From contig NZ_JAIFRO010000003.1 in NCBI RefSeq assembly GCF_019659805.1, positions 1-64,000 of the forward strand: a DNA stretch of 64,000 bases, written 5' to 3'. The notes below the pieces were generated by a model. That model searched no databases, was not told where the DNA came from, and was given only the letters and a program-made list of their open reading frames with translations. Source of the stretch: Bartonella raoultii (GTDB lineage: Bacteria; Pseudomonadota; Alphaproteobacteria; Rhizobiales; Rhizobiaceae). Below, in pieces: positions 1,410-13,214 of the stretch (positions are counted from its first letter, which is position 1; every line of letters starts with the position of its first letter). Position numbers and translations under genes: made by a program.

Positions 1410-2201
1410 TTAAAATAGGTTCCTTTTGGAGCTTGCATCATCGCCGTCCATTGCAATTGTCAGACGTGCTTTTATGGGGGGTAAATTCATACGCATCATG
1501 CCACTAGTCGAAAGAGACGCCCATACATTCACGGGCTCTGATAACAAACCAGACAGTAAGGAAAGACCGGTTTCAATGCCTTCACAAATAACCAGATGTT
1601 TTGGATTAGCTTGGCTTAAATGTACAGCACCGCCCATGACAGAACCCAACATGGCTTTTGCTGGTTTCTGATCTGTTTTGCAGCCATTGGTTTGTAAAAA
1701 GGTCCTATGAATGGCAAAAGAGCCAGCCCCCTTAACAAGAGCAACCAACGCGGGCAGTGTTATCCCTAATGGGTGTGGACATTTGTCGTGAAAACGTAAA
1801 TCAGCAGGCAATTCACAAGTAATCCCCCGCATACGTAAATAGGTTTCTGCTAAAGTATCTTTTATTGGTTGGCTTTGTTGCCAAATCTTTTGTGCTCTTT
1901 CTGCTTTCTGCTTTACTCGTTTGAGATCAGCAGAAAACTGTTTTGAGAAAGAAAGCGTGTGATCATAAGCTTTATCAAAAAAGGCTTGTTTCCCCAGCAA
2001 GCCAATTCTTCTAAGCGCTTGTATGATCTCTTTAAAAGAGCAGCCCGCATAACAAGTGAGTAAGAGACGCCCATCATGTCCATTAGCAAGAGATAAGCTA
2101 GGCAATTGATCATCATGGGCTGGACAACGGGCACTTCCATAATGCCCATGCCAAACCCCACGCAAGGCATTTGTGATGCCCTGAGAATTTTCATAAAACA
2201 T
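1410..2201 (-). CDS. Truncated CHC2/toprim-type phage primase
   Basis: A 263-residue protein with an N-terminal CHC2-like zinc-binding site (C26, H29, C50, C54) and a C-terminal toprim domain: HLVICEGIETGLSLLSG carries the conserved glutamate, and IAMDGDDA carries the DxD metal motif. Proteins of this type normally continue for some 40-100 residues after DGDD; here the frame ends SSKRNLF and stops, so the C-terminus seems lost. It would synthesise RNA primers for phage DNA replication. It is in the same orientation as the AlpA-like gene and integrase upstream and the DUF3987-type fragment downstream. I infer a decayed P4-like replication module; residual activity is doubtful. Confidence 0.65.
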   Translation of the reverse strand: MFYENSQGITNALRGVWHGHYGSARCPAHDDQLPSLSLANGHDGRLLLTCYAGCSFKEIIQALRRIGLLGKQAFFDKAYDHTLSFSKQFSADLKRVKQKAERAQKIWQQSQPIKDTLAETYLRMRGITCELPADLRFHDKCPHPLGITLPALVALVKGAGSFAIHRTFLQTNGCKTDQKPAKAMLGSVMGGAVHLSQANPKHLVICEGIETGLSLLSGLLSEPVNVWASLSTSGMMRMNLPPIKARLTIAMDGDDASSKRNLF

Positions 2202-2712: not shown

Positions 2713-3879
2713 TTAAGCTTGACCGGTGACATAAGCCGCCCATTTATCCATATAGACACGGCGCTGTTCTAAATAATCCGTACGACGATAGGCACGCTCT
2801 ACTTTACCGCCGACCGTATGAGCTAGAATAGTTTCAGCGACCTCATAGGGGGCATCGGTTGTTTCAGCAAGCCAATTGCGTAAACTAGAACGAAATCCAT
2901 GGGGGCAGGCATCACGTTTATTGTCTCTCATATATTGAGCCATACACTTATCAGCGAGGGGACCTCGACCGGTTGCAGAAAAGAAGAAATCATTACGAGA
3001 AAGCAATCGTGCTTGTTTTAAGATTTCTAATGCTTCAGATGATAGAGGCACGCGAAATTCTTTTGTTGTATCACGCCTTCCTTTCATATTTTCAGCAGGG
3101 ATAGTCCATATATCCCCCTCAACTTGATCTTTATGAATATGGCGTATAGGATTTGTACGAACACCTGTCAGAATAAGCAGACGCAATGCTAGTTGTGTTA
3201 GGGTTGATGCTTCGCAAAGCGTTTGATAAAAAGCAGGAACATCTCTCCAATCCATTGCTGATCTATTAGTGGTTTTATGGAGTTGTTTACCTAAGAGCGC
3301 GCGTGCTTTTTCTGTTGCCTGTAAGTCAACATTCAATCCCAGAGCAGCCGCATGTTTAAGACAAAGATTAAGACGGTTCAGTGCTTTACGAGCTGTATCA
3401 GCTTTTGTATGCCAAATAGGGACAAGCGTATTGCGTATTTCTGTTTGTGTAATCTCAGAAACGGGCAAACAGCCTAATTTAGGGAGAATATGAAGGCGTA
3501 ATGGTAAAAACCAACTTCCATTTTGACCATCCCCTTTTAATTCAGCTTTACGAGTTTCAAAAGTCTCTAAAGCAATATCTTTTAGATAATGGAGATTGCT
3601 TATTGTTTCACGTTTTTGTTTTTCACGTTCTTTAATGGGGTCACGCCCTTCACGAAGAACGGAACGCCACCCCGTTACCAATTCACGGGCTTGTTTTAAA
3701 GAGACATCTCTTAAATCACCCAAGCCCATTTCGCGGCGGCGCCCATGAAGAGTATAACGGTAAATCCATTGAGCACCTCCATCTTTACGTTTGTGAAGAA
3801 GCAAGCCGGCACCATCATTATATTTGCCAGCCCCCAATGTTGCGACAGCCCTTGCATTAAGACGGTTCATAAGGACCAT
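2713..3879 (-). CDS. int: Prophage tyrosine integrase
   Basis: A 388-residue site-specific recombinase. The N-terminal DUF4102/arm-binding part (about residues 1-85, with RLNARAVATLGAGKYNDGAG and YTLHGRRREMGLGDLRDVSL) is followed by a core-binding domain and the catalytic domain. Visible catalytic residues are the arginine in LTGVRTNPIR, the HGFR box (His and Arg), the histidine in ETILAHTVGG and the nucleophilic tyrosine in ERAYRR. All are intact, so it could be active. The start at 3879 is preceded by AAGGAG at good spacing, which is better than the frame opening at 3915. Its promoter region is shared with the divergent tail genes. No duplicated tRNA end or other att site is visible next to it. 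Confidence 0.9.
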   Translation of the reverse strand: MVLMNRLNARAVATLGAGKYNDGAGLLLHKRKDGGAQWIYRYTLHGRRREMGLGDLRDVSLKQARELVTGWRSVLREGRDPIKEREKQKRETISNLHYLKDIALETFETRKAELKGDGQNGSWFLPLRLHILPKLGCLPVSEITQTEIRNTLVPIWHTKADTARKALNRLNLCLKHAAALGLNVDLQATEKARALLGKQLHKTTNRSAMDWRDVPAFYQTLCEASTLTQLALRLLILTGVRTNPIRHIHKDQVEGDIWTIPAENMKGRRDTTKEFRVPLSSEALEILKQARLLSRNDFFFSATGRGPLADKCMAQYMRDNKRDACPHGFRSSLRNWLAETTDAPYEVAETILAHTVGGKVERAYRRTDYLEQRRVYMDKWAAYVTGQA

Positions 3880-3904
3880 TTTTACTCCTTTCTTATACAA
3901 ATTT

Positions 3905-4047
3905 GATCCACACACTCATCCCGCTTGTGATGTGCAAATGAGTGATTTTTATTGATGCAAGATAAACAGATTTGAAATAAGGGAATCTTACGTTATTCGG
4001 GACTCTCATTCAATATGAATAATGCTAGATTATCATTATAAATCAAT
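3905..4047. repeat. Dispersed intergenic element, copy A
   Basis: The integrase/tail divergent region resembles 50064-50202 in the parC-MFS gap. The copies share 19 identical bases (ATTATCATTATAAATCAAT, 4029-4047 and 50184-50202) and, upstream, an imperfect but collinear match including CGCTTGTG/TGCTTGTG, a GTGATTT word, GAAATAAGGGAATCTTACG-like sequence and spacing. Alignment was done by eye. Confidence 0.55.
3985..4013 (-). promoter_or_regulatory. Candidate sigma70 promoter for the integrase
   Basis: On the minus strand TTGAAT (4013-4008) and TAAGAT (3990-3985) are separated by 17 bases and lie about 105 bases upstream of the integrase ATG. It falls inside the dispersed element. Motif match only. 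Confidence 0.35.
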
Positions 4048-4083
4048 GTCTTGCCTATTCTAGGCACGTTACAGAAGGATTCG

Positions 4084-4371
4084 ATGAAGATCCATAGCCA
4101 TGGAGGAAGCAGTTTTTCTATTTTGAATAACGAAGGGGATAGCGAAAGTTGGTATGGTTATAGCACGATTATTTGGGGCTATATGTTCAATGAGCAGCAA
4201 AGAGCCAAACTTGCAGAACGGCTTGGTGTTCGGGTTGAGGATATACGTGTTCACCATAAGATAGCTTTTCCCCGTTCTCATCTTCATATGCATGATGTTG
4301 TTTTGGAGGGTTCCGGTTCGGGGGAAACACGTCCTGTCAATATAGCTGTACGCTTTGGAATTAAGACGTGA
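4084..4371 (+). CDS. Orphan C-terminal fragment of a phage tail-collar/fibre protein
   Basis: A 95-residue protein starting at ATG 4084, with AGAAGGA at correct spacing. Its end, GSGETRPVNIAVRFGIKT, is nearly the same as the end of the full collar protein immediately downstream, GEETRPVNVSVVFGIKT, and both have a His-rich segment just before (SHLHMHD versus LAPHEHR). It lacks any N-terminal collar domain. The stop codon overlaps the Shine-Dalgarno of the next gene, so they are probably co-translated. It may be a leftover of duplication, or a spare tail-tip cassette that recombines with the downstream gene. The paralogy is seen directly; its role is inference. Confidence 0.65.
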   Translation: MKIHSHGGSSFSILNNEGDSESWYGYSTIIWGYMFNEQQRAKLAERLGVRVEDIRVHHKIAFPRSHLHMHDVVLEGSGSGETRPVNIAVRFGIKT

Positions 4372-4379
4372 GGGGTTTT

Positions 4380-5519
4380 ATGTCGACGGTTTATGATTGG
4401 TCTTTAAAAGCCTTAGAGAATGGCAATGCGGATGCTTTGATCAATTGGTCAGAGGGTCAGCCTCCTAGTACAGTCAACAACAGCGCCCGTATGATGATGC
4501 AACGGATCAAAGAGTATCTCTTAGATACGGGAGGGGTTATTGAGAGTGTTTTTGTATATGATGAAGGACAAAGCACAACGTCGGTTCATTTGCAAAGTAG
4601 GTTGGCTTATCCTGCTTATAGGGACGGTCTTCATTTACGTTTTGTCTCACGTGGTCACAATAGAGGCGCGACGCGTGTTTCAGTTAATACTTTAACCAGC
4701 CAGCCTGTTTATAAGGCCACAGATAAAGGGCTATCGCTTTTATCAGGTGGTGAGTTCCAAGAAGGGTGTGTTTATAGCCTTGTGTATGATGAAGCGCTTT
4801 CAGGTTGGCAAGTTCTCAATCCTACCCGTGATCCAGTTCCAGCGTCAAAAACATTACCGACTGGTTTAATCGGTCCTTTTGCCATGCGCCATTTACCGGC
4901 TGGTTGGTTGTTGTGTGATGGTCAGGCTTATAGTCGTTTACACTATAGGTCTCTTTTTTCGAAGATAGGGACGAGTTGGGGGGAGGGAGATGGTGTAAGA
5001 ACCTTTAATGTTCCAGATTTGCGTGGGATGTTTTTACGGGGTCTTGATGAAGGGCGCAATGTTGATCCTTGGCGTTCTTTTGCAAGCCAGCAAGAGCATT
5101 CTTTAAAAGCCCATGATCATTTTATCGGTTCTATAGCCCCTCATTCTCTCGCCTCCCGTAAGAAGCGTGATGTCTCTTCTTCAGATGCTTTAAAAAGAAG
5201 CAAGCGTTCTCTTGATAGCGATGAGGAATGTTTAGGATTGAGCGGGGATGCCTTGGAAAAGTGTAATCAAGAATTTGATGAAAGAGCGGGCGTTCCAGCG
5301 GCTCCAGAGGTTCCCTTTTGGTTTACAGAATCGGATAAACCGCCCCGTTTACCTTGGTTTATTCGGTCTCCATTTGCCAATTTTTTAATCTCTTCTACGC
5401 CGTTACAAGAGGGTTTGGATCGTCTTGCTCCTCATGAACATAGATTTCTTATCGACAGTTTTGGTGGAGAGGAAACGCGTCCAGTCAATGTATCGGTTGT
5501 ATTTGGCATAAAGACATGA
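4380..5519 (+). CDS. Phage tail-collar domain protein
   Basis: A 379-residue tail fibre/collar protein. The N-terminus (TVYDWSLKALENGNADALIN) resembles the start of Rhizobiales phage tail proteins. A tail-collar domain occupies about residues 158-232: LPAGWLLCDGQAYSRLHYRS, then VPDLRGMFLRGLDEGRN and DPWR. Between about residues 258 and 320 there is a highly charged, Lys/Arg/Ser-rich insertion (ALKRSKRSLDSDEECLG) that is unusual within such proteins. The C-terminus ends ETRPVNVSVVFGIKT. The ATG at 4380 is preferred over an in-frame GTG at 4368 because GAGGGG lies at proper distance. The product is expected in the distal tail; host-binding is inferred from the family. Neighbours are the orphan paralogue and the giant fibre. 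Confidence 0.85.
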   Translation: MSTVYDWSLKALENGNADALINWSEGQPPSTVNNSARMMMQRIKEYLLDTGGVIESVFVYDEGQSTTSVHLQSRLAYPAYRDGLHLRFVSRGHNRGATRVSVNTLTSQPVYKATDKGLSLLSGGEFQEGCVYSLVYDEALSGWQVLNPTRDPVPASKTLPTGLIGPFAMRHLPAGWLLCDGQAYSRLHYRSLFSKIGTSWGEGDGVRTFNVPDLRGMFLRGLDEGRNVDPWRSFASQQEHSLKAHDHFIGSIAPHSLASRKKRDVSSSDALKRSKRSLDSDEECLGLSGDALEKCNQEFDERAGVPAAPEVPFWFTESDKPPRLPWFIRSPFANFLISSTPLQEGLDRLAPHEHRFLIDSFGGEETRPVNVSVVFGIKT

Positions 5520-5784: not shown

Positions 5785-8700
5785 ATGAGTATACCCCACC
5801 ATACCCATGAATATTATCTCCCAACGGCAACCAAAGAAGAGATAATAGAGGGGCGTTCGCAAGATACGGTTGTTGTTCCCAAGTTGTTAGGGACGGCTTG
5901 CCTTTATTCTTATGAAACTTTTGCGCCGTTAGAACAGGTTGTCGATGTAAGGAAAGAAGTAGAAACGGCAACCGCCCGTGCAAATGGCGCCCAACAAAAG
6001 GCAGAAGAGTCCAAAAGACTATCAGAGCAGGCGCTTACAGAGGTGCAAAGAACGGTTGAAAGTGTTGGCAATGCGCTCACGCGTGCAAACAGTGCACAAG
6101 AGAGTGCAGGAAGAGCAGAGCAGACAGCTTCAGAAGCCAAAACAACAGCGGCAGAAGCACAATTGGTCTCGGCAGAAGCCAAGCTTAAATCGGAGGCAGC
6201 AGAAAGATTATCGCAAGAAACGCAAACGATAGCTTCAAAAGCCAAGAGAATATCGGAAAGCGCGCAAGCAGCTGTTGAGAAGAACATATCAGAAGTTGAT
6301 ACGGCGAAAGGTTTATTAAGCTCAGGATTGGCAACAGTTACACAAGCCAAGCAGGAAAGTGAGAGTGCATTGCGTATAGCAAGAGAAGCCAAGGCGGAAT
6401 CCTCACAAGCCTTAACAGCTTCAGGATTAGCGCAGTCGACCTCAGAAGAAAGCAAGACAGTCTCACAACGAGCAGAAGCCAGTGCTAGAGAAGCCGAACA
6501 ATCTTCTCTGATAGCAAAGAATGGAGCGTTAGAAGCCAAACAGATAGCTGATGCTGCAAAACTTCTCTCAGAAGAAAGCAAGACTTTGTCAGAACTTTCT
6601 AAGACGGCTTCAGATCAATCACTCTTGGTTTCGACACAAGCCAAGCAGGCCAGTGAAGAGGCCAGCAAGCAAGCCTCAGAAGCTTTAAGCAAGTCGGTTG
6701 AATCACGGGCATTGTCGGAGGAAGCCAAGAAAATAGCGACAGAAGGCATACGAGAAGTTAAGCAAGAGGTTTCGTCGATTTCGAAAGTAGCAATGCAAGC
6801 GGAACAAACAGCGACAGAGACGACGCAAGTCGCAGCCACAGCCGTTGCAACATGTCATGAAGTTAAGACAGTTTCTCAGAGAGCCAAGAGTGTTGCAGAA
6901 ACAGCCCAGCAGGTAGCGACAGAAGCGAAGGAGTTAGCAGAATCTTTTAAGGGTGTAGCAGAAGGTGCATCTCGTACAGCCAATGAAGCCAAGGAGGCAA
7001 GTGAAAGAGCTTTGAGGAGCTCTCATCAAGCAGAATCTTCAAGCAACAGTGCTCAGCAGGTAGCGACAGAAGCGAAGCGTTTAGCAGAGCAAGCGGTCAG
7101 TTCAGTCACAGAGGTCACCAAGACCGCTCAACAGGTAGCAAGCTCTGTTGAGACAGCCGTTAGTCTGTCTCAAGAAACACGATCGCTTGCAGAGAGAGCC
7201 CAAAGTCTTTCTGGAGAAGCACAAGCTACGGCTTCAAAAGCATTATCGAAAGCAGAAGAATGCGAAGCCGCATCGGGTGAAGCCTCAAGAGTCTCTTTAG
7301 AAGCCAAGCAGATAAGTGAAACAGTGCAAGCAACAGTAACTTCTCTACAAAGCAGTGTTGATAAAGCAGTTTCAGAAGCAGCAGATGGCAAGAGTAAAGC
7401 AGCAGAAGCAAAACAGCTAGCATTGGAAGCGAAGGATGCCTCCACCAATGCCCTCACTTCTTCTAGGGATGCCAAGGAGCATTCTTCACAGGCGCTTACA
7501 ACAGCCCATGATGCGAAGACAGCTTCCCTAGCGTCTCAAAAGAAAAGTGAAGAGGTTGCAGGTATAGCGAATGAAGCAAAATCTTTGGTTGATAGAGCGG
7601 TTTTGGATGCAAGCGCCGCCAAGCAGGCGTCGACAAGCGCGCTTACAGCCTCCAGTGATGCGAAGCAGCAAGCTTCTGAGGCTGTTGTTTTCGTTAAAGA
7701 GGCCAAAAGTGTTTGTGAAGAATCTAAGGCATTATCCGATAAAGCAATCAAGGTCTCTACGGAGGCCCAACAGGCATCGGAGGCATCACGAACCGCTTCT
7801 CTGGATGCGCAAGCAACAGCAGGCTTGGCATCTACAACAGCCAATGATGCGAAAAGCATAGCAGAGCGTGCACACAGTCTATCGGAAGAGGCAAAGAGCT
7901 TAGCGCAAGAAAGCAAAGCGCGTTTTGAAAGCGTTCAACAAAAGATAGAAGACATCAAAGAAGTTTCAGATACAGCTCTCTCCACAGCGAATGCGGCCAA
8001 ACAAACAGGAGAAGAGACAAGCAAGCAAGCTTCAGAAGCTTTGACGAAGTCTGTTGAAGCCAAGGCTTTATCAGAGGAAGCGAAAAGTGTCTCAGAGACT
8101 GCTCGTAGGAAAGCGAATGAAGCAGAGCAGGCAGCGTCAGAAGCCTCAAAGGTCGCTTTAGAAGCAAAAGCAGTTGCAGAACGGGCTGTTGTTACGGATG
8201 GAGAAACCCTTCGAGGGGGAGAAGCGCTCAAAAGTTTAGTTGAAGAGGTAAAGAAGAAAGCAGAAACAGCAGAAAGTTTAGCTTCAGAAGCAAAAGAGAG
8301 CGCTTCACAGTCCTTGCTAGCTTCTAATCATGCAAGGAGTGAATCAGCAACAGCGGTAAATACAGCGAATGATGCAAAGAGTAAGGCAGAAGAAGCCAAG
8401 ACCCTCTCAGAAGCGTCAAAGAGTATGAGCAGTGATGCAAAGCAATTGGCTACACAAGCCAAGGAAACCTTGACAAGCGCGCTTACAGAAACAAGGGATG
8501 TAAAAGAGCAAGTAGAGGCAGCAAAAAGAATATCAGAAGAAGTAAAGCAAGAGCTTATAGGATTAAAAACGTCATCAGACTTGGCATTATCGACAGCGAA
8601 TGCAGCAAAAGCCACGGGAGATCAAGCCTCTCAACAGGCTACAGAAGCAAAGAGTTTAGCAGAAGATGCCAAGAGTGTTTCAGACAAATTACAGAGCAAA

Positions 8701-11286
8701 ATAGATAAGATAGAGCAATTAGCAGAAAAAGCGCAAGAAACGGCTACAGCCTCCAAAGAAGCGGCTTCTTATGCGAAACATGATGCCGATCAAGCACAAA
8801 AGAAGGCGCAAAGTTCAGAGAATTTATCCTATCAAGCCTTAAATAAAGCCGAAGAAGCCAAGCAATCGGCGGATGGAGCGAGTATAAAAGCGAGCTTGGC
8901 AGAAATGGCAGCAGAAGAAGCCAAGAAAACCGCCGGCTCCACTTTATCGCAAGCTTATGCCGCCAAAGATGAAGCAGATAAAGCCAAGGAAATAGCGAAT
9001 GGAGCAAGAATAAAATCCAGCTTGGCAGAGAGTGCAGCGGAAGAAGCCAAGAAAACCGCCGGTTCTTCTTTATCACAAGCTTATGCCGCGAAAGATGAGG
9101 CGGGTAAAGCCAAGGAAGCAGCACATGGAGCGAGTATAAAAGCGAGCTTGGCAGAAATGGAAGCAAAAGAAGCCAAGCAATCAGCAAGTTCAGCGTGGAG
9201 AGAAGCCAATGAAGCCAAAGATTCTGTAAAGACTATAAAAGAGAGCGTTTCCAATGCGAAAGATGATGCAGAGCAAGCGCGGCAAACAGCAGAAGAAGCC
9301 AAGCAATCGGCGGATGGAGCACGTCATAAAATCAATGATGTTGAACAGGTTATAGAGACGCTCAAAGCCTCACTTGATTTGGTAAAAACGGATGCATCAG
9401 GAGCCTTGTCAACAGCGCAAAAGGCAGAAACAGCCGCTTCAGTTGCGAAAGAAGAGGCAAGTCAAGCGCAAGAAGTAGGCAAGAATGCGAAGTCGACAGC
9501 AGATGAGGCGCTCACGAAAGCGACAGATGCCAAGAGCCATGCTGAATTGGCAAACACCACCTCCAATGAAGCCAAGACACTTGCCGAGCAAGCCACGAGC
9601 AGGCTCAATTCCCTGAATTTATCGGAAATGCGCCAAAGGGTTAATGCGCTTCAACAAAGTGTAGAACAAGCGCATCAATCGTCACAAACAGCGAGCAACA
9701 AGGCTGAAGAAGCGACCCAACAAGCAAGCCAAGCCAAGAGTTTGGCACAAGAAGCCAAGAATACAGCAGAAGGGGTAAAAAGTAGTTTAGAGACATTAAA
9801 AACGACATCAGAGCAAGCACAAGAGAATGCCTCTGAAGCCCTTCGTATAGCCAAAGAAGTCAAAGCCGCCTCAGAAGGTTCAGATGTTGAGGAAGATGAA
9901 GAAATAAGCGAAACGGCAGATGATGAAGCGATGGCCATAGCGTCCGATGCGCAAACAGTTGCTTATGATGCCCGCTTGAAAGCCATGTCAGCGGATATAA
10001 AAGCCGATAGAGCCGATCGCAATGCGCAGAATGCGAAGGAAGAAGCCAAGAATGCGCAGGAAAAAATCGCGGAAGTGAAGGAAGAAATTACAAAAGCGAA
10101 GAAAGAAATCGAAGAAGCCAAGCAAAGCGCGAGTCATGCAATACGAGAGAATAATAGTACGAAGAGATGGCTCACACAGACATTCCAAAAAACGGAGCAA
10201 TTAGAAAAAGACCTAGACGATATGGATCTTTCTGTGAGCAACGTCTCTAATAACATCCGTACGGTCCAAACGAAGGTGGAAGAAGCAAAAACATTAGCAC
10301 AAGAGTTCAAAACGGCTTGTGAACGTAGCGCTTCTGATCTTCTCAAAAAGTTAAGTTGGAATGTTTTTACCCAGTCCACGCCATTTCTGAAGACAGATAT
10401 AACCAAACGGCTCATTTTAGAAGGAGAAACGCATATTTCTGTCAAGGATGGGAGTGATATACAGCTGGTCAGTTTTACGAGCAGTTCTACAGAGGTCGCG
10501 CTTCCTTCTTCAGGTCTTTCAGCCGGTAAGGATTATTATGTCTATTTGGTGAATGGGGGGAGAGAGGACCAAAAACTGATTGTGTCAGAGTATAAAAGTT
10601 CTCCCCGTGATGCAGACATTTCAACATATAATTGGAAGCAGATAGGCGGTTTTCATACGCTTTGTGCAGATGTTGGCTATTCTGCGTATCATCCTTTATC
10701 CGGTTATAAAGCAGGGGATATTTTACCCCGTTCTGTTTGGTGTCTCAATCATCGCCCGCATTGTTCCCCAGAAGGTATGGTCTACGATCCTAGAAGAGAT
10801 CTTTGGGTGGATATCTATCTTCAATCCGGTAAGGGGGAAGATACCAAATCAGCCTATGGTGTTCCGATCACCAGCAATCGTTCTTATACAGATCATGCCA
10901 AGGATATGATGCAGGTAAAGAAAAGGTTATTGGGTCATGAGGATTTTCTTTCAGCGATGTATGGAAGCAATGAAAATAGCAGTATTGAGGGACAACAAGC
11001 GCCTACACCAGCCCATTCAGGAGGTCATAAGGATACACAAGAACGTCGTATGATTTCGCATATTGGTTGTGAGGATGGTTATGTTTCGCAATATTTATCA
11101 GAGTTTTTCCCCGTTCCCAATCAAAGTGATCCTTCAAAGAGTGATATGCATGTTTTGATTGGTGGTGGGAGTTGGCAGGATGGAGCAGAATGCGGTAGTT
11201 TTTTTCGTCAGAGCGTGCATTCTCGTAATTTTACGGATGAGAAGGTAGGAGCGCGTGGATGCTGTCGTCCACGTCGTTTTATTTGA
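5785..11286 (+). CDS. Giant coiled-coil phage tail fibre with C-type-lectin-like tip
   Basis: A 1833-residue protein with three parts. Residues 1-52 form a globular N-terminus (PHHTHEYYLPTATKEEIIEG) that probably docks on the tail. Residues about 55-1510 are one almost uninterrupted Ala/Glu/Lys/Ser/Gln-rich coiled coil built from EAK, SEEAK and ANEAK-like repeats, with few prolines or aromatics; three 42-residue copies are nearly identical. Residues about 1525-1833 are globular, aromatic- and glycine-rich, ending VLIGGGSWQDGAECGSF and then VGARGCCRPRRF. That ending resembles the C-type-lectin/formylglycine-enzyme fold of phage receptor-binding tips such as Mtd (family knowledge, not searched). 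Start ATG 5785 follows AAGGAAGC. At 1.5 angstrom per residue the rod could span about 0.2 micrometres. It is very likely a receptor-binding fibre. Confidence 0.8.
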   Translation: MSIPHHTHEYYLPTATKEEIIEGRSQDTVVVPKLLGTACLYSYETFAPLEQVVDVRKEVETATARANGAQQKAEESKRLSEQALTEVQRTVESVGNALTRANSAQESAGRAEQTASEAKTTAAEAQLVSAEAKLKSEAAERLSQETQTIASKAKRISESAQAAVEKNISEVDTAKGLLSSGLATVTQAKQESESALRIAREAKAESSQALTASGLAQSTSEESKTVSQRAEASAREAEQSSLIAKNGALEAKQIADAAKLLSEESKTLSELSKTASDQSLLVSTQAKQASEEASKQASEALSKSVESRALSEEAKKIATEGIREVKQEVSSISKVAMQAEQTATETTQVAATAVATCHEVKTVSQRAKSVAETAQQVATEAKELAESFKGVAEGASRTANEAKEASERALRSSHQAESSSNSAQQVATEAKRLAEQAVSSVTEVTKTAQQVASSVETAVSLSQETRSLAERAQSLSGEAQATASKALSKAEECEAASGEASRVSLEAKQISETVQATVTSLQSSVDKAVSEAADGKSKAAEAKQLALEAKDASTNALTSSRDAKEHSSQALTTAHDAKTASLASQKKSEEVAGIANEAKSLVDRAVLDASAAKQASTSALTASSDAKQQASEAVVFVKEAKSVCEESKALSDKAIKVSTEAQQASEASRTASLDAQATAGLASTTANDAKSIAERAHSLSEEAKSLAQESKARFESVQQKIEDIKEVSDTALSTANAAKQTGEETSKQASEALTKSVEAKALSEEAKSVSETARRKANEAEQAASEASKVALEAKAVAERAVVTDGETLRGGEALKSLVEEVKKKAETAESLASEAKESASQSLLASNHARSESATAVNTANDAKSKAEEAKTLSEASKSMSSDAKQLATQAKETLTSALTETRDVKEQVEAAKRISEEVKQELIGLKTSSDLALSTANAAKATGDQASQQATEAKSLAEDAKSVSDKLQSKIDKIEQLAEKAQETATASKEAASYAKHDADQAQKKAQSSENLSYQALNKAEEAKQSADGASIKASLAEMAAEEAKKTAGSTLSQAYAAKDEADKAKEIANGARIKSSLAESAAEEAKKTAGSSLSQAYAAKDEAGKAKEAAHGASIKASLAEMEAKEAKQSASSAWREANEAKDSVKTIKESVSNAKDDAEQARQTAEEAKQSADGARHKINDVEQVIETLKASLDLVKTDASGALSTAQKAETAASVAKEEASQAQEVGKNAKSTADEALTKATDAKSHAELANTTSNEAKTLAEQATSRLNSLNLSEMRQRVNALQQSVEQAHQSSQTASNKAEEATQQASQAKSLAQEAKNTAEGVKSSLETLKTTSEQAQENASEALRIAKEVKAASEGSDVEEDEEISETADDEAMAIASDAQTVAYDARLKAMSADIKADRADRNAQNAKEEAKNAQEKIAEVKEEITKAKKEIEEAKQSASHAIRENNSTKRWLTQTFQKTEQLEKDLDDMDLSVSNVSNNIRTVQTKVEEAKTLAQEFKTACERSASDLLKKLSWNVFTQSTPFLKTDITKRLILEGETHISVKDGSDIQLVSFTSSSTEVALPSSGLSAGKDYYVYLVNGGREDQKLIVSEYKSSPRDADISTYNWKQIGGFHTLCADVGYSAYHPLSGYKAGDILPRSVWCLNHRPHCSPEGMVYDPRRDLWVDIYLQSGKGEDTKSAYGVPITSNRSYTDHAKDMMQVKKRLLGHEDFLSAMYGSNENSSIEGQQAPTPAHSGGHKDTQERRMISHIGCEDGYVSQYLSEFFPVPNQSDPSKSDMHVLIGGGSWQDGAECGSFFRQSVHSRNFTDEKVGARGCCRPRRFI
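8875..9252 (+). repeat. Three tandem 126-bp repeats inside the fibre gene
   Basis: The word GGAGC(G/A)AG(T/A)ATAAAA recurs at 8875, 9001 and 9127, exactly 126 bases (42 codons) apart. Copies one and two are close along their whole length (EEAKKTAG and LSQAYAAKDEA in both); the third diverges after about 20 codons. The period is a multiple of seven, so unit gain or loss would keep the coiled-coil register. Confidence 0.85.
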
Positions 11287-11322
11287 GAAACTTCATAGAA
11301 GGATCCAGTCTCATTTTTATTC

Positions 11323-11348
11323 AGCCTCACTTTTGTGGGGCTTTTTTT
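11323..11348 (+). terminator. Rho-independent terminator between fibre and lysis genes
   Basis: AGCCTCAC (11323-11330), TTTT loop and GTGGGGCT (11335-11342) form an 8-bp stem with one G-U pair, followed at once by a run of T to 11348. It ends three bases before the Shine-Dalgarno of the endolysin. Confidence 0.8.
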
Positions 11349-11360
11349 ATGGAGGAGCAA

Positions 11361-12023
11361 ATGCGCAAGATATCGAAGGAAGGTTTAGAGCTTATTAAAC
11401 AATGGGAAGGTTTACGCTTAGAGGCTTATAGAGATGAGGCATGTGTGTGGACGATTGGTTATGGTCACACCAGTTATGCGGGCAAACCTTTGGTGCATAA
11501 GGGCATGTGTATTACGAAAGAACAAGCCGAAGAGATACTTTGTAAAGATTTAGAGCAATTTGAGCATGCGGTAGAGCAGTTTGTCATGGTTTCGTTAACG
11601 GATGCGCAATTCGCGGCATTGGTGTCGTTTTGTTATAATGTAGGCACAACCGCCTTTTGCCAATCGACCTTATTAAAAAAGCTCAATAAAGGGGATTATG
11701 AAGCTGTTCCTACAGAATTACAGAAATGGAATAAGGTAGGAGGTAAACCGCTTCAAGGATTAGTCAATCGTCGCGCCGCTGAAGCAGGGTTATGGGCCAA
11801 GGGATCTTATGTTTGTTCCAATTATCAAAAGGTAGAAACGAAAGAGAGGAGCGGTTTGTTCAAGATAGAAGCGCTTGCACCGATTATAGGGTCCTGTTCA
11901 GGGCTTGGAGGGCTTTTTGCAGGCAATGGTCCTATCCAATGGGTTTTGGCAGGGATGATGGTTCTAGCTGCTGTAACAGGGGTTTTTATAGTCACAAAAC
12001 GCTTTAAGGAACAGCGGTTATGA
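11361..12023 (+). CDS. Phage endolysin, GH24 muramidase with C-terminal membrane anchor
   Basis: A 220-residue T4/R21-type lysozyme that cleaves the glycan strands of peptidoglycan. The catalytic triad has canonical spacing: E16 (KQWEGLRL), D25 (AYRDEA) and T31 in WTIGYGHT. The family core runs to about residue 150 (VNRRAAEAGLW). After a linker, residues about 192-214 form a transmembrane helix (WVLAGMMVLAAVTGVFIV) with a basic tail. There is no N-terminal signal or SAR helix, so targeting may use the C-terminal anchor. The ATG at 11361 is chosen because GGAGGAG sits just before it; the frame opens earlier, inside the fibre gene and the terminator. Its stop overlaps the next ATG (ATGA). Confidence 0.9.
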   Translation: MRKISKEGLELIKQWEGLRLEAYRDEACVWTIGYGHTSYAGKPLVHKGMCITKEQAEEILCKDLEQFEHAVEQFVMVSLTDAQFAALVSFCYNVGTTAFCQSTLLKKLNKGDYEAVPTELQKWNKVGGKPLQGLVNRRAAEAGLWAKGSYVCSNYQKVETKERSGLFKIEALAPIIGSCSGLGGLFAGNGPIQWVLAGMMVLAAVTGVFIVTKRFKEQRL

Positions 12024-12696: not shown

Positions 12697-12942
12697 ATGA
12701 GTGTAAAAAGTGAACTTATAGCAGCTAAAGTAGATATAAATCTAAAAAGCGCATTTATGGCTATAGCTGAAAGAAAACATCGTCCAGCATCTCAAATTTT
12801 ACGTGATCTGATTCGTATTTACGTTGAAAATAATAAAATACCTAATCAGGAAACGCTTGAAACTTTTCACAAAACAGACAGAAATGAAGATGTTTTTTAT
12901 GCTAAAAATATTGCTGATTTGATGAAGCAACTGGACATCTAA
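12697..12942 (+). CDS. dinJ: DinJ/RelB-type antitoxin
   Basis: An 81-residue antitoxin. The N-terminal ribbon-helix-helix region (residues about 3-48) has the expected beta strand (ELIAAKVDINLKSAFMAIAE) and a second helix PASQILRDLIRIYVEN; the acidic, flexible C-terminus (DRNEDVFYAKNIADLMKQLD) would wrap the toxin. It is followed after two bases by a YafQ-type toxin, the standard DinJ-YafQ order. GAGAGGAG precedes the ATG. Autoregulation through the palindrome upstream is expected. The pair lies in prophage-derived DNA and could help keep the island. Confidence 0.85.
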   Translation: MSVKSELIAAKVDINLKSAFMAIAERKHRPASQILRDLIRIYVENNKIPNQETLETFHKTDRNEDVFYAKNIADLMKQLDI

Positions 12943-12944
12943 TT

Positions 12945-13214
12945 ATGCGTTCAGTGAGTTATTCAGGAAAGTTTAAAAGGGATGTAAGACGGGCAAAAAA
13001 ACGTGGAAAAGATATGCAAAAGCTTATAGAAGTTATGCAACTTCTAATTCATAAGCAGCAATTGCCGACTATTTTAAATGATCACGCATTACAAGGCAAT
13101 TGGAAGCCTCGTAGAGACCTTCATATAGAGCCAGATTGGTTGTTAATTCATATAGTTGATGAAGAGCGTGTCCATTTTGATAGGACAGGTACGCACTCAG
13201 ATTTATTTAAGTAA
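12945..13214 (+). CDS. yafQ: YafQ-family mRNA interferase toxin
   Basis: An 89-residue RelE/ParE-superfamily toxin that cuts mRNA on the ribosome. All residues that matter in E. coli YafQ are present with the same spacing: H47, H60, D64, W65, R80, H84 and F88 (E. coli H50, H63, D67, W68, R83, H87, F91), in the blocks DLHIEPDWLLIH and RTGTHSDLF. The N-terminus is highly basic (FKRDVRRAKKRGKDM), as in the family. It is complete, so probably functional. It follows dinJ by two bases and is translationally coupled. Confidence 0.9.
   Translation: MRSVSYSGKFKRDVRRAKKRGKDMQKLIEVMQLLIHKQQLPTILNDHALQGNWKPRRDLHIEPDWLLIHIVDEERVHFDRTGTHSDLFK

Follow-up and report, generated by a model that had tools for sequence, protein, structure and literature searches.

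The gene at positions 5785-11286 (+ strand) of a 64,000-nucleotide stretch from Bartonella raoultii (contig NZ_JAIFRO010000003.1, positions 1 to 64,000, hereafter the window) opens with ATG, specifies a protein of 1833 aa, and is read here as coding for a distal tail fibre with receptor-binding function, carried by a short-tailed Bartonella prophage of the P22-portal type. The fibre would consist of a giant alanine-zipper rod ending in a tip of the Mtd type, with tips that vary by recombination and rods that change length by whole heptads, and we put the probability of this reading at about 0.85. As judged from the sequence, the identification as a phage receptor-binding fibre appears well supported by both fold and context. 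Mtd, the receptor-recognition fold that Bordetella phage BPP-1 hypermutates to switch hosts, is the model for machine-made receptor diversity, and an Mtd tip that lacks a detectable machine of this kind across many species of one genus offers a natural comparison of binder variation with and without a diversity-generating retroelement (DGR).

The original prediction described a nearly unbroken coiled coil of some 1450 residues within one gene, and this is borne out by an exact open reading frame (ORF) and by residues 56-1525, a stretch of 1470 aa (308 Ala, 199 Ser, 188 Glu and 148 Lys) with no proline at all; prolines occur at residues 4, 13, 32 and 48 and then only from 1533 on. The heptad signal is strong, the period-3.5 spectral power of apolar residues being 124.7 against a maximum of 5.1 over 200 shuffles. 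In a register fit, a run of 268 residues (56-323) is followed by a single unbroken heptad run of 950 (324-1273), and by this analysis the coil is not chopped into short pieces; tipward of residue 1273 there are eight smaller blocks (83 and 101 residues, the others 6-19). Because the fit learned its register profile from residues 350-1250 of the same fibre, these run lengths are descriptive and not an independent prediction. Over the same residues, Ala occupies 73% of one core position and 53% of the other, where Ser accounts for a further 26%. Ala is thus found at both heptad core positions, as in alanine zippers, and the Pfam model Alanine_zipper matches the fibre (E 5e-22). With a helix rise of 0.1485 nm per residue, a fully helical coil of 1470 residues would measure about 218 nm, a rod of roughly 0.2 micrometre and thus the length first proposed. 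At the other end of the protein, searches with residues 1-100 against Pfam and PHROGs, and with residues 1-60 against the phage collection, gave no match.

The tip had been suggested to resemble the C-type-lectin fold of phage tropism determinants, and structure prediction with fold search now points to the same answer. The second domain of Mtd is recognised in the fibre by PF21916 with a score of 43.2 bits (cut-off 24.6), and a single-chain model built from an 80-sequence alignment is predicted to have the Mtd fold, a beta-sandwich followed by a C-terminal C-type-lectin domain of the Mtd/FGE type. One set of 80 tips had been compiled without those that were truncated 3', ill-suited in length, alike or containing X; from it L042-like repeats were set aside, and L044, L056, L065, L106 and L166 were kept out of alignment A2. 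Matches of the tip model begin at Mtd residue 47-48 (the first 55 residues of the fibre were not modelled) and nothing in the fibre tip aligns with the N-terminus of Mtd; the missing beta-prism weakens the case for a complete Mtd, not that for an Mtd tip. The end motifs originally singled out as lectin-like sit within the last 41 residues, and comparison between strains found the last 40 to be hypervariable: across Bartonella loci no other part of the tip varies as much, while the GG and R/ARG positions are kept. Two tip residues are missing from the window copy and are present in the other three host copies and in all 17 other rows of alignment A1.

The host genome carries four nearly identical open copies of the fibre gene (1833, 1835, 1835 and 1786 aa), one of which is short by 49 residues, or seven heptads. 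In the fuller copies the gene follows those for terminase, a P22-type portal (PF16510), capsid protein, transglycosylase and three collar fibres, and is itself followed by lysozyme; the most complete of the prophages lies on C24 at about 161-199 kb. In the window copy the head genes and P22-like portal are absent, the integrase region joins straight onto the 3' part of collar fibre 2, and the missing part of that gene is found at full identity at only three places. It is very improbable, in our view, that the fibre belongs to no virion and is a surface adhesin that Bartonella has exapted for attachment to host or sister cells. Such a role would suit a genome with four nearly identical open copies, one of them in an element without head genes, and a genus that uses very long coiled adhesins (the host has four YadA_anchor open frames), but no signal peptide is visible by eye in the fibre, YadA anchor is not among its Pfam matches, the fibre gene sits between those for collar fibre and lysozyme in a phage-like arrangement, with portal and capsid genes present in the fuller copies, and the tip family is one of phage receptor-binding proteins.

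Tips were found in 30 of the 71 Bartonella genomes searched, one genome per species (that of G085 was counted on a 24-bit match), several being fragments or carrying stops; the fibre is the probable means by which this widespread group of Bartonella prophages recognises its hosts. Of 296 genomes of the order outside the genus, 4 matched the tip alignment: G241 strongly (E 2.9e-52), the remaining three with E values between 4e-5 and 7e-4. A search of the plasmid collection gave no match. The relative in G241 (L188 and L193; G241:C89:11386-12836), from another family of the same order, is a 384-aa protein; shortly downstream, a second brief match to the end of the tip may represent a DGR template repeat. 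Some of the Bartonella loci represent one strain present in two collections, and of 96 viral places the best 80 were kept (79 loci).

Outside the window genome, 22 distinct Bartonella records carry the N-terminal motif and are free of truncation by contig ends; their fibres range from 514 to 1771 aa and the coils from about 17 to 219 nm, at least two (L065 and L106) having broken tips. Eight further records without the motif were left out. When 15 close pairs were compared, seven non-redundant pairs with gaps remained, and 14 of their 19 coil gaps were multiples of seven residues, as would result from selection for register or from recombination between in-register repeats. Whole-coil spectral power is low in L040, L050, L051, L052, L058 and L061 (2.2 to 5.9), which is read as register shifts cancelling one another, and the coils of relatives were scored by register fit instead. 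These observations also bear on the possibility that the gene is a decaying relic, its length a product of repeat slippage without function. An element without head genes, the loss of two conserved tip residues in the window copy, and the several Bartonella tips that are fragmentary or contain stops would agree with decay; the preservation of register in 14 of 19 length changes, the 950-residue register, the lack of proline and the four open copies speak for selection having acted recently on the family, but do not do so for this copy, and we consider the relic unlikely.

DGR components were looked for at and around the tips. A DGR-type reverse transcriptase (RT) motif was present at 57 of 100 tip loci judged non-Bartonella versus 0 of 39 Bartonella loci, by a scan that misses some (43 of the 100 were blank, partly owing to short flanks); for loci with at least 2 kb downstream, the counts were 53 of 82 versus 0 of 25, with a median distance of 986 bp. 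A stricter form of the scan had found the motif at none of the 139 loci, obvious DGR loci included, and was therefore widened and backed by a Pfam model. Viral contigs were called non-Bartonella by tip identity and N-terminus, not by host label, and one (L116) was placed in the Bartonella group on its N-terminus. The Pfam model RVT_1 matched none of the 30 tip-bearing Bartonella genomes and 4 of the 71 overall, all without a tip, whereas in a control with 15 other tip loci all 15 genomes or records matched, 14 above the cut-off, although some of these matches are perhaps to unrelated reverse transcriptases. A template repeat was sought with a 134-base patch query of the host assembly, which found only the four identical target copies. 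Codons ending in C or T make up 0.637 of the Bartonella patch versus 0.718 in RT-bearing loci (p 1.7e-4; 24 and 44 loci), and codons for K, Q, E, M or W 12.5% versus 4.7%, a comparison in which a few patches outside Bartonella were wrongly located by the stretch finder; by its codon use, the Bartonella patch appears unlike mutagenised AAY codons. DGR targets are followed directly by a hairpin with a GRNA loop, as defined in PMC3240598. When Bartonella tip ends were scanned strictly for perfect stems, 5 of 30 had a hairpin, in no case with a GRNA loop, and the window had none; the scan is weak, as it gave hits in only 12 of 48 RT-bearing loci.

Because no mutating machinery turned up in Bartonella, the tips probably vary by another route. 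There is very little likelihood that a DGR acting in trans, or one located on an unassembled element, still diversifies the tip: the concentration of variability in the last 40 residues, the usual position of a variable repeat, is what such a system would produce, but all RVT_1-bearing Bartonella genomes lack the tip, the patch is identical in all four host copies with no further copy in the assembly, and the codon use described above appears to point away from it. A different pattern emerges from two tips of one genome, which are 96% alike over the first half and 40% alike over the last 41 positions; at the DNA level, identity drops from 0.94 to 0.70 over some 120 bp close to the domain boundary and reaches 0.48 in the patch, whereas the identity of one of the two tips to another species climbs from 0.88 to 0.96. 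Orphan lectin-domain pieces, each with lysozyme after it, occur at L200 7800-8273, L201 7880-8383 and L202 2941-3546 (those of L200 and L202 adjoin an integrase), and in two genomes such pieces have 0.93 to 1.0 DNA identity to the genome's own full-length gene over nearly all shared 90-bp windows. The orphan pieces are possible donors for tip exchange, and the patterns fit domain exchange among prophages.

Several points weigh against the reading of the gene as a functional tail fibre with exchangeable tips and a rod that varies in register. The window copy may be inert, because it has neither the head genes nor the two tip residues, and the assembly may have merged identical repeats, which clouds the loss of the head genes. 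The evidence for tip recombination comes from few pairs. Five coil gaps (18, 24, 4, 239 and 57, of which 18 + 24 = 42) do not fit whole heptads, gap placement within coil repeats is uncertain, and recombination of in-register repeats alone would yield whole heptads without selection. A tip model made from 18 Bartonella tips was poor (pLDDT 48) and was discarded, and since a good model needed the 80-sequence alignment, the tip fold is partly taken from relatives.

For a receptor-binding tail fibre, the following scheme can be proposed. Three chains would wind into a single rod, Mtd and alanine zippers both being trimers; the N-terminus would attach to the short tail, while binding to a receptor on the bacterial surface, ahead of DNA entry, would fall to the lectin face that the last 40 residues form. 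Tip diversity is more likely to be maintained through recombination among related prophages and remnants, and rod length would shift by gain or loss of whole heptads. BPP-1 is also a short-tailed phage. Its Mtd (PDB 1yu0-1yu4) and the fibre have in common the second domain, the C-type-lectin domain and a variable patch at the extreme C-terminus with GGxW...GARG. The two differ in that Mtd is a separate protein, whose N-terminal part, presumed to attach it to the BPP-1 fibre, has no counterpart in Bartonella, where fibre and tip are one chain on a giant rod; a template repeat and reverse transcriptase are annotated beside BPP-1 mtd, and neither was found for the Bartonella tip. A precedent for the fusion is Vibrio cholerae HE-09, in which a kappa-prophage tail fibre is fused to mtd in one gene; unlike the Bartonella fibre, this fusion is accompanied by RT, atd and TR, and the accessible part of the source describes no giant alanine-zipper rod (PMC3521204). 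Tentaclins and other DGR-target lectin-fold proteins of gut phages share with the fibre tip a C-type-lectin domain proposed to bind phage receptors, but, as far as the consulted portion goes, have another topology and are DGR-linked, the second target proteins there being without a beta-sandwich (PMC10743442). The open-licence literature searched contained no description of a DGR-less Mtd tip on a giant alanine-zipper rod in Bartonella, the protein being absent from the consulted passages of PMC3610622 and PMC11080155 as well, and PMC4786415, in the part seen, names Bartonella and the tropism determinant apart from each other.

Very long rods are also a feature of trimeric autotransporter adhesins such as BadA of Bartonella henselae, given in PMC2483945 as 3082 residues and about 240 nm. 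Unlike the fibre these are exported, membrane-anchored bacterial proteins, and no sequence relation to the fibre is claimed. The host genome has YadA-anchor open frames of 5977, 2716, 1906 and 1391 aa (G000:C22:175350-207625), and the host with the 5977-aa frame also has a fibre among the longest seen. By this analogy, from one genome, a phage fibre of adhesin-like length may be required for getting past such a surface layer, or may bind it. With rod and tip in one chain and length changing mostly in register, fibre reach can be compared across species and with the thickness of the host surface layer. A more speculative history, which we regard as rather improbable, is that a Bartonella phage lineage acquired an Mtd tip, shed the retroelement and joined the tip to an extensible rod, and that it now shuffles lectin cassettes between resident prophages and remnants and tunes the rod by whole heptads to reach past the adhesin layer.

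Table 1. Features of the fibre gene and the surrounding prophage in the window.
Feature	Position	Strand	Basis
Tail-fibre gene, 1833 aa	5785..11286	+	ORF list; Pfam and PHROG tail matches
Putative N-terminal docking segment, aa 1-55	5785..5949	+	Kept among aligned Bartonella fibres, 21 distinct sequences
Alanine-zipper coiled coil, aa 56-1525, proline-free, ~218 nm if fully helical	5950..10359	+	Pfam, composition, register fit
Longest unbroken heptad register, aa 324-1273, 950 residues	6754..9603	+	Register fit
Tandem repeat within coil, 126 bp unit (42 aa = 6 heptads), 2.6 copies	8855..9177	+	
Mtd second domain, aa 1547-1653	10423..10743	+	PF21916, E 5.7e-11
C-type-lectin/FGE-like domain, ~aa 1657-1833	10753..11283	+	Bounds are the span of FGE-type matches on the model
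Two-residue loss site in window copy	11070..11085	+	
Position-equivalent of DGR variable repeat, GGxW....R....GARG, last 41 aa	11161..11283	+	
Tyrosine integrase adjoining truncated prophage	2713..3915	-	Pfam, PHROG
Tail-collar fibre 2, 3' remnant (337 aa where intact in another copy)	4051..4371	+	
Tail-collar fibre protein 3	4368..5519	+	Pfam, PHROG
Terminator-like hairpin between fibre and lysozyme	11323..11342	+	Consensus match only
Phage lysozyme (endolysin)	11349..12023	+	Pfam, PHROG; start codon by eye in ORF 11259-12023

Terminator-like hairpins such as that in Table 1 numbered 11 in the region versus 7.8 expected. The truncated prophages of the window (3915-4056), L036 (~15812), L200 (7600-7830) and L202 (3440-3740) share a similar ATTATCATTATAAATCAAT-like end, which in all four cases sits at most ~140 bp from the integrase start and beyond which they enter different phage positions (collar fibre, 3' part of terminase, tip and tip, respectively). 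These shared ends could reflect integrase-anchored variable deletions, or a low-specificity satellite that integrates into prophages. A primase-like frame beside the integrase (window 1410-2201) perhaps forms with it the left part of a second element that runs off the contig start. Two small neighbouring ORFs (81 and 89 aa; window 12697-13214) have, by eye, a toxin-antitoxin-like layout and a counterpart of ~90% identity by a prophage remnant in L202. Adjoining a second prophage copy, L036 carries a Type ISP restriction-modification enzyme of 1664 aa (5952-10946).
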